Assembly (NCBI GenBank): GCA_039680785.1
Contig: JBDKSF010000087.1
Coordinates: 1-32,631, forward strand
Direction: 5' to 3'
DNA length: 32,631 nt
Origin: Candidatus Cloacimonas sp.
GTDB taxonomy: Bacteria > Cloacimonadota > Cloacimonadia > Cloacimonadales > Cloacimonadaceae
In this document: piece by piece, positions 1,693 to 2,213 of the stretch
Layout: each line of letters opens with the position of its first letter
Numbering within the stretch: the first letter of the stretch is position 1
The notes under the pieces: generated by a model
The model's input: only the letters and a program-made list of their open reading frames with translations
Databases searched by the model: none
Told to the model about the DNA's origin: nothing
Made by a program: the position numbers and the translations under genes

Positions 1693-2213
1693 TTTTTATT
1701 CTCCTTTGTTAAAATATGGGTTGACTTTTTGGTCAACTACAACAAACAAACTGTCAAGCTATGTTTTTCCAGGAAGGTTGACTTCCTCGTCAACCCACAA
1801 CAAACAAACTGTTAAGCTATTCCAAAATTATGTGGAAACAGTATAATTTGGTTGTCTGGGGAACGACAAGATGTCGTTCTTCCTTTTTGACAACAAACAA
1901 ACTGTCAGGAAGTGTTTTTCCAGGAAGGTTGACGTCCTCGTCAACCCACAACAAACAAACTGTTAAGCTATTCCAAAATTATGTGGAAACAGTATAATTT
2001 GGTTGTCTGGGGAACGACGAGATGTCGTTCTTCCTTTTTGACAACAACAAACTGTCAAGCTATTCCAAAATTATGTGGAAACAGTATAATTTGGTTGTCA
2101 GGGGAACGACAAGATGTCGTTCTTCCAGATCGTCAAGAGTTCTCACTGCCAAAAGTATTTTCAGAGTGAAAACATCCTATCTTGGCAGTGATGACTCCTA
2201 ACTTTTTTAGTAT
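1693..2213. other. Gap between korC and mce: repeat array plus long inverted repeat
   Basis: This 521-bp region is mostly the 151-bp array. Past it, 15-nt arms at 2137-2151 and 2183-2197 form an inverted repeat (13 of 15 paired, including perfect TCACTGCCA / TGGCAGTGA) just beyond the korC stop. It lacks a following T run on the minus strand, so I do not call it an intrinsic terminator, though it could protect the korC mRNA 3' end. Confidence 0.55.
1718..2126 (+). repeat. 151-bp tandem repeat array with hairpins
   Basis: Copy A is 1740-1890 and copy B 1891-2041, each exactly 151 bp and nearly identical. Copy C (about 2042-2126) keeps the start and the end but has lost the internal GGTTGAC hairpin block. 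The array is preceded by a lone hairpin GTTGAC-TTTTTG-GTCAAC (1720-1737). Each full copy holds the phrase ACAACAAACAAACTGT twice, a hairpin GGTTGAC...GTCAACC (1776-1795 in A), and a hairpin GAACGACA-AGA-TGTCGTTC (1861-1879 in A; variants in B and C). No protein is supported here. Confidence 0.85.

Follow-up and report, generated by a model that had tools for sequence, protein, structure and literature searches.

A hairpin array in Candidatus Cloacimonas, probably the local tandem expansion of a dispersed REPIN-like element

The window analysed here, the whole stretch of 32,631 nucleotides from a Candidatus Cloacimonas contig, carries between two genes of the minus strand a tandem array of hairpins. 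The upstream neighbour encodes the gamma subunit of a 2-oxoacid:ferredoxin oxidoreductase (2214-2750; TIGR02175, 86.2 bits, cut-off 81.1), and the downstream neighbour a methylmalonyl-CoA epimerase (1285-1692; TIGR03081, 151.5 bits, cut-off 114.95). What is this array, and how did it come to lie there? A sequence-only reading had taken it for a composite REP-type element, made of two joined hairpin modules and growing by unequal crossing-over, and had suggested a search for a REP-associated tyrosine transposase (RAYT) gene.

The array extends on the plus strand from 1739 to 2126 according to TRF, which reports a period of 151 (2.1 copies at 1739-2059) followed by a period of 92 (1.9 copies at 1948-2126). 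Comparison of the repeats within the window shows that the two 151-bp repeats (1739-1889 and 1890-2040) are 96% identical and that the third repeat starts 92 nucleotides after the second, being thus 59 bp shorter than the 151-bp unit. The two full copies and the internally deleted one described earlier are therefore confirmed. Left hairpins were located at 1719-1737, 1776-1794 and 1927-1945, right hairpins at 1861-1879, 2012-2030 and 2104-2122, and the phrase ACAACAAACAAACTGT was found without mismatch at 1739, 1797, 1890 and 1948, in agreement with the claim that each full copy holds two different hairpins linked by a repeated phrase. Pairing is indeed partly kept despite the variation in the arms, since the change from GACAAGATGTC to GACGAGATGTC affects only the loop-closing pair.

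The array could be divided into five parts, all on the plus strand. A collapsed element of 56 bp (1715-1770), defined from its sequence, consists of the first left hairpin and the start of the spacer, the remainder being deleted, and ends with GTTTTTCC. It is followed by a full element (1772-1883), delimited by folding and by its dispersed copies, which comprises the tag GGAAG, the left hairpin 1776-1794, the spacer, the right hairpin 1861-1879 and a CTTCC end. A remnant of a collapsed element (1884-1922, TTTTTGACAACAAACAAACTGTCA...GTTTTTCCA), recognised by eye through comparison with 1715-1770, separates this copy from a second full element (1923-2034; hairpins 1927-1945 and 2012-2030), which is 98.2% identical to the first. 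The third copy (2041-2126), delimited by repeat comparison and hairpin search, lacks the left hairpin and retains the right one at 2104-2122. Each 151-bp repeat is thus one intact element plus about 39 bp remaining from a collapsed one; 151 bp is the local unit, and the dispersed unit is the element of about 112 bp. Folded as single-stranded DNA, the two full elements gave z-scores of -5.4 and -5.9, better than 200 of 200 dinucleotide shuffles, and the collapsed first copy (1715-1772) gave an unremarkable -1.05. The exact copy number of the array depends on the assembly, because the window belongs to a draft of 122 contigs.

Several other repeats were noticed around the array. A 21-bp imperfect inverted repeat (GTCAAGAGTTCTCACTGCCAA / TTGGCAGTGATGACTCCTAAC) adjoins it at 2132-2202 and was also noted at L124; it has counterparts at the matching place in the sister species G001 and G007 and a similar sequence lies within an element spacer of G007 (L155), so it is probably another dispersed repeat. 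A GTAG-tagged REP (GTAGTCGGAGGACGCCGTTCCTCC) is present at 1054-1077 and, by eye, at 152-187. Short tandem repeats (ATCTGTGCAATCCGTGCA, GTCGAGAG and AGGTGGAAAAGTGAAA) occur at 213-273, 968-1025 and 1006-1042, around the L27/L21 genes.

The array was then used as query against the window's own genome (G000; 2.07 Mb, 122 contigs, 99% complete). This search returned at least 56 matches, the window included and two of them with E above 1; it scored 40 of 66 candidates and missed copies such as that at C47:1961. Many matches span only about 115 bases, in the order GGA, left hairpin, spacer, right hairpin, TTCC. The exact left hairpin, searched with a pattern in which the TCCT loop is obligatory, was found 64 times in G000, 10 times in the sister species G001 and 7 times in the sister species G007, and is absent from the other 121 of the 124 Cloacimonadota genomes searched; the reversed control pattern gave no match in any of the genomes listed. 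The right-hairpin pattern, which is looser and less specific (its reversed control gives 1 to 5 matches), was found 60 times in G000, 15 times in G001 and 18 times in G007, as well as 6 times in G004 and twice in G006, both of which belong to the more distant congeners (G003-G006). Furthermore, the phrase ACAACAAACAAACTGT with up to 2 mismatches matched 68 times in G000 against 0 in the control. The copies are extragenic: with a crude procedure for calling open reading frames, no frame of at least 150 aa overlapped any of 60 clusters from 57 stretches, some of them duplicates. The genome-wide search suggested earlier thus bears out the REP-type nature of the repeat; the idea of two modules joined at this locus does not hold, since they form a single dispersed element with a hairpin at either end. 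On contigs C25, C33, C45, C54, C93 and C101 of G000, copies lie about 35 bases or less from the end of the contig. The assembly thus seems to break at these repeats, and more copies probably exist than were counted.

The element of about 112 bp (window 1772-1883 and 1923-2034) is made of a left hairpin, a spacer starting ACAACAAACAAACT and an inverted right hairpin. Alignment of 52 full copies (mean column identity 84%) gave the consensus GGTTGAC-N-TCCT-N-GTCAACC for the left hairpin and GAACGAC..AGGA..GTCGTTC for the right one, separated by a spacer of about 64 bp. Read inward from either end, the consensus shows AGGA outside and TCCT in the loop, and the two stems differ from each other, forming a heterodimer. 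The start is GGA in 49 of the 52 copies (GGAG in 42, GGAA in 7) and GTAG in 2. TCCT forms the left loop of 49 copies, and the right loop is less constant, with AGGA in 32 of 52 right hairpins. CGTC, where present, sits within the stems, and the ends read GGAR...CTTCC. Among 62 left-right pairs, counted in the fetched stretches and hence lower bounds, 53 measure 110-114 bp, five 147-148 bp, two 219-220 bp, one 291 bp and one, the collapsed copy of the window, 56 bp. The length classes are 36 bp apart, which reflects the repetition, in some spacers, of a unit of that size (AAGCTTGTATGGAATAATGCGGAAACTACATAAATC type): at L110, L102, L099, L107, L109 and L111 the spacer is built of such units, giving the elements of 147-148, 219-220 and 291 bp with end hairpins of the usual type.

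Pairing of the hairpins was evaluated on the same alignment. Over the whole structure 93.3% of cells are paired, a value reached by none of 500 shuffles, and the covariation score (0.067 vs 0.053) was likewise reached by none, a test that related sequences can pass even in the absence of structure. Most of this signal comes from the pair closing the left loop (columns 12/17; G-C in 20, C-G in 19, unpaired in 12 of 52), because pairs changed on both sides (3 vs a shuffled mean of 1.9; 101 of 500 shuffles) and further pair types (12 vs 11.8; 329 of 500) were unremarkable. A comparison at one orthologous locus is better evidence: the right stem is GAACGATG/CATCGTTC in G000 and GAACAACA/TGTTGTTC in G007, with three double changes that are all paired, and the left stem of G007 at this locus has one mismatch. 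The spacer itself folds weakly (mean z of -0.67 for the largest group, 47 elements of G000); in 66 elements of 105-115 bp the group means ranged from -1.61 to +0.70, and 7 of the 66 fell below -2. A conserved three-hairpin (cloverleaf) fold was discarded, as both full window copies fold in this way but the consensus does not.

The history of the locus was followed in the related genomes. At the corresponding position, flanked by the epimerase and oxidoreductase genes, one degenerate copy is present in G001 and no element in G007, where a GTGTAG...CTACAC repeat pair stands instead; in G003, G004, G005 and G006 the gap is short and without insert (with Ns nearby in G005), and a search for it in G002 gave no match. 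Identity between the two full window copies reaches 98.2%, and with the best copy outside it is 86.8%. Similar differences were obtained at L185 (95.6% within the locus vs 82.5% outside) and L091 (98.2% vs 86.1%), and overall the nearest relative comes from the same locus in 18 of 35 copies, for a shuffled mean of 1.0 and a maximum of 6. At L097, L098, L113, L010, L118 and L084 the best match from elsewhere exceeds the best match within the locus, and at two more loci it does so marginally. Since the window copies are closest to each other, the gap of the sister species holds a single degenerate copy and the congeners have none, the array arose from a REPIN-like element that was resident in the gap and was duplicated in tandem there. 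The local expansion proposed from the sequence is in this respect upheld, although unequal crossing-over, the mechanism named there, and replication slippage are indistinguishable on the basis of the present sequences.

Comparable changes were seen at other positions. At the C47 locus, the orthologous locus whose stems are compared above, the two hairpins of G007 stand 6 nt apart, G001 carries a single full copy, and G000 has three copies in tandem with the last one truncated. Positions common to G000 and G001 were found at six loci (the window, L185, L114, L116, L097 and L010), and L015 is a probable seventh. No clean empty site with its target sequence was obtained in these comparisons. The C58 locus was uninformative in this respect, its flanks lying on different contigs in G001 and being separated in G007 by about 2 kb, against 540 bases in the query, and L153 and L019 were rejected as orthologs because the shared stretch stops short of the element.

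Taking these data together, we consider it likely that the window contains the local tandem expansion of one REPIN-like element, that is, two inverted REP-type hairpins around a spacer of about 64 bp. The element would most likely have entered the window gap before the two sister species split, two independent insertions being the alternative. In the species of G000, an intact element and the remnant of a collapsed one would then have been duplicated head to tail; the similarity of the copies is observed, and crossing-over or slippage may have produced it. The family as a whole may have spread as hairpins in single-stranded DNA through the action in trans of an HUH enzyme, probably a RAYT that is now lost or unlinked, and would have been carried further by the duplication of larger composite repeat islands, as the fixed order of the neighbours suggests.

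A link to a RAYT gene, envisaged from the sequence, did not materialise at the loci scanned. One Y1 gene was found in G000, on contig C77 (PF01797, 29.3 bits, cut-off 23; NF047646, 80.7, cut-off 80), and its product matches the solved TnpArep 4er8 with an E-value of 0.0002. This RAYT-like gene (L061 1420-2088, minus strand) is flanked by repeat pairs of about 60 bp, in which GGCGGACGCCGTTCCGCC and GGCGCTnnAGCGAGCGCC form hairpins and GTAC lies close to the ends, and a loose scan of its whole contig of 16.8 kb revealed no element hairpin; it was rejected as the mobiliser of the element. G001 and G007 have one NF047646 match apiece, below the cut-off. Nineteen Y1 loci of the genus were scanned for exact matches, and none had an element hairpin. 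A looser scan, applied to these loci, to 4 further Y1 loci and to five stretches of 17-20 kb surrounding Y1 genes of G000, G001 and G007, gave no left hairpin; of 23 loci that carry the element, it recovered a left hairpin in 21 and a right one in 22, and very diverged hairpins could escape it. It also gave a few scattered right-pattern matches, most of which are not hairpins; one of them, at a distance of about 9 kb from the Y1 gene of G007, is a good right hairpin. Mobilisation by a RAYT is therefore presumed.

Many element copies belong to composite repeat islands with a fixed order. Module A (GGGTTTTAACCC) lies within 60 bases on the left of 28 of the 52 full copies and never on the right (mononucleotide-shuffled mean 0.1, maximum 1), and module C (TCTCACAGATT) on the right of 32 and never on the left (0.4, maximum 3). 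Module B (AAACAAGGATATT) lies to the left of 12 copies and to the right of 16 (1.2, maximum 6). The combination of A or B on the left with C on the right was found in 26 of 52 copies; six, including both window copies, have neither A or B on the left nor C on the right, and two of these six (L121 and L096) show decayed modules by eye. Such an order is what one would expect if the element were an immobile passenger, its recent copies having arisen as large composite islands were duplicated in tandem and recombined, and the lack of a RAYT of its own among those found points the same way. However, module-free copies exist (the window, L116 and L185), module B stands on both sides, and three of five elements found in G007 are equal in length (110-112 bp) with diverged spacers. 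We regard this passenger reading as possible but on the unlikely side; it is compatible with the expansion of a REPIN-like element as a late phase. In addition, a tandem repeat of about 66 bp (AGTCCCAGCGGGACGACAGATATTAGCGACGGGTTTTAACCCGGCG...) forms arrays to the left of the element at L097, L098, L113, L006 and others. A similar sequence flanks the Y1 genes of G007 (L133, with one in-frame TAG) and G006 (L134); the flanks of the only Y1 gene found in G000 are different.

The ends could also be the terminal inverted repeats of a MITE moved by a double-strand (DDE) transposase, the hairpins being incidental. In favour of this, pairing of the four outermost positions is seen in 96.6% of cells and the lengths are narrow (110-114 bp in 53 of 62), but the outer match is just 4-5 bp, either end has its own hairpin, and no consistent target duplication was visible by eye in 52 flanks, themselves mostly repeats. 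This origin is considered improbable. The same low probability was given to an element kept by the host for mRNA end processing, stabilisation, termination or promoter activity in the oxidoreductase-epimerase gap. The element is intergenic and structured, and the array contains promoter-like sites on the minus strand (2112-2083 and 1869-1840) and three terminator-like sites, one of them (1737-1720) on the strand of both neighbour genes. The two others (1858-1882 and 2009-2033), which correspond to the right hairpins, are on the plus strand and hence antisense to both genes. Moreover, promoter-like (6 vs a shuffled 3.4, sd 2.0) and terminator-like sites (3 vs 1.3, sd 1.3) in 1200-2800 remain within about 1.3 sd of the shuffles, the genes flanking 25 distinct clusters with both neighbours called are in mixed directions (12 co-directional, 8 convergent, 5 divergent), the left hairpin is missing from 121 other Cloacimonadota genomes, and no Rfam family matched the window at the gathering score. 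A host function is unnecessary to explain the element. A purely local duplication without relatives elsewhere is practically ruled out by the genome-wide copies, the phrase matches and the 64 left hairpins.

More tentatively, and with considerable doubt, the family might represent a third class of REP tag, with a GGA tag and a near-invariant complementary TCCT loop, restricted to a few Cloacimonas-like species, with a spacer able to lengthen as a 36-bp minisatellite, and moved in trans by an unlinked enzyme. If this were true, repeats would expand at three nested levels, namely the spacer unit, the element and the composite island. Each single point is modest. Taken as a whole, this Cloacimonadota family, whose tag is different, whose length rises in 36-bp steps and which has no transposase linked to it, allows a natural test of the tag, loop and stem that a REPIN requires, and of how nested repeats fill the intergenic regions of bacteria.

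REP and REPIN work rests mostly on Proteobacteria, to judge from the abstract of PMC3733652 and from general knowledge. No published account of the present repeat or of REPs in Cloacimonadota was recognised in the portion of the open-licence literature covered, and the words Cloacamonas and Cloacimonas are absent from the main text of PMC3733652. The REP-like nature of the element is supported. Two inverted REP hairpins, with differing stems, and many extragenic copies per genome were found, as in REPINs. The tag is neither GTAG nor an unpaired CGTC, and the Y1 loci scanned are not flanked by the same REP; since GTAG begins just 2 of 52 copies and RAYT adjacency was looked for at those loci and not found, the element is called REPIN-like. 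The GTAG-tagged REP seen in the window, as a separate repeat, has 13 exact-pattern copies in G000, 13 in G001, 3 in G007 and none in G003-G006.

Known systems are compared here from parts of three papers. The element resembles the REPs, BIMEs and TnpAREP REPtrons (PMC8266576) in being an intergenic hairpin behind a conserved tetranucleotide, often in mosaic groups, but it has another tag and no linked TnpAREP; in the REPtrons, loop positions matter in two of three models and not in E. coli. With the HH heterodimers of GTAG- or CGTC-tagged REPs (PMC3733652) it shares outer tags, partners with different stems, spacers mostly of 20-100 bp and a regular tie to other repeats, which a few REP families show; unlike them, it has neither GTAG nor CGTC as unpaired tag. 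Differing stems, the GGAR tag, 36-bp repeats in some spacers and the lack of an adjoining RAYT set it apart from the REPINs of Pseudomonas fluorescens SBW25, as described in part of PMC3116915. Like these, however, it forms mostly inverted, extragenic hairpin pairs and occurs both as singlets and as tandem clusters of near-identical units including their flanks, and tandem, near-identical REPINs with their flanks are the commonest type of REPIN cluster in SBW25.
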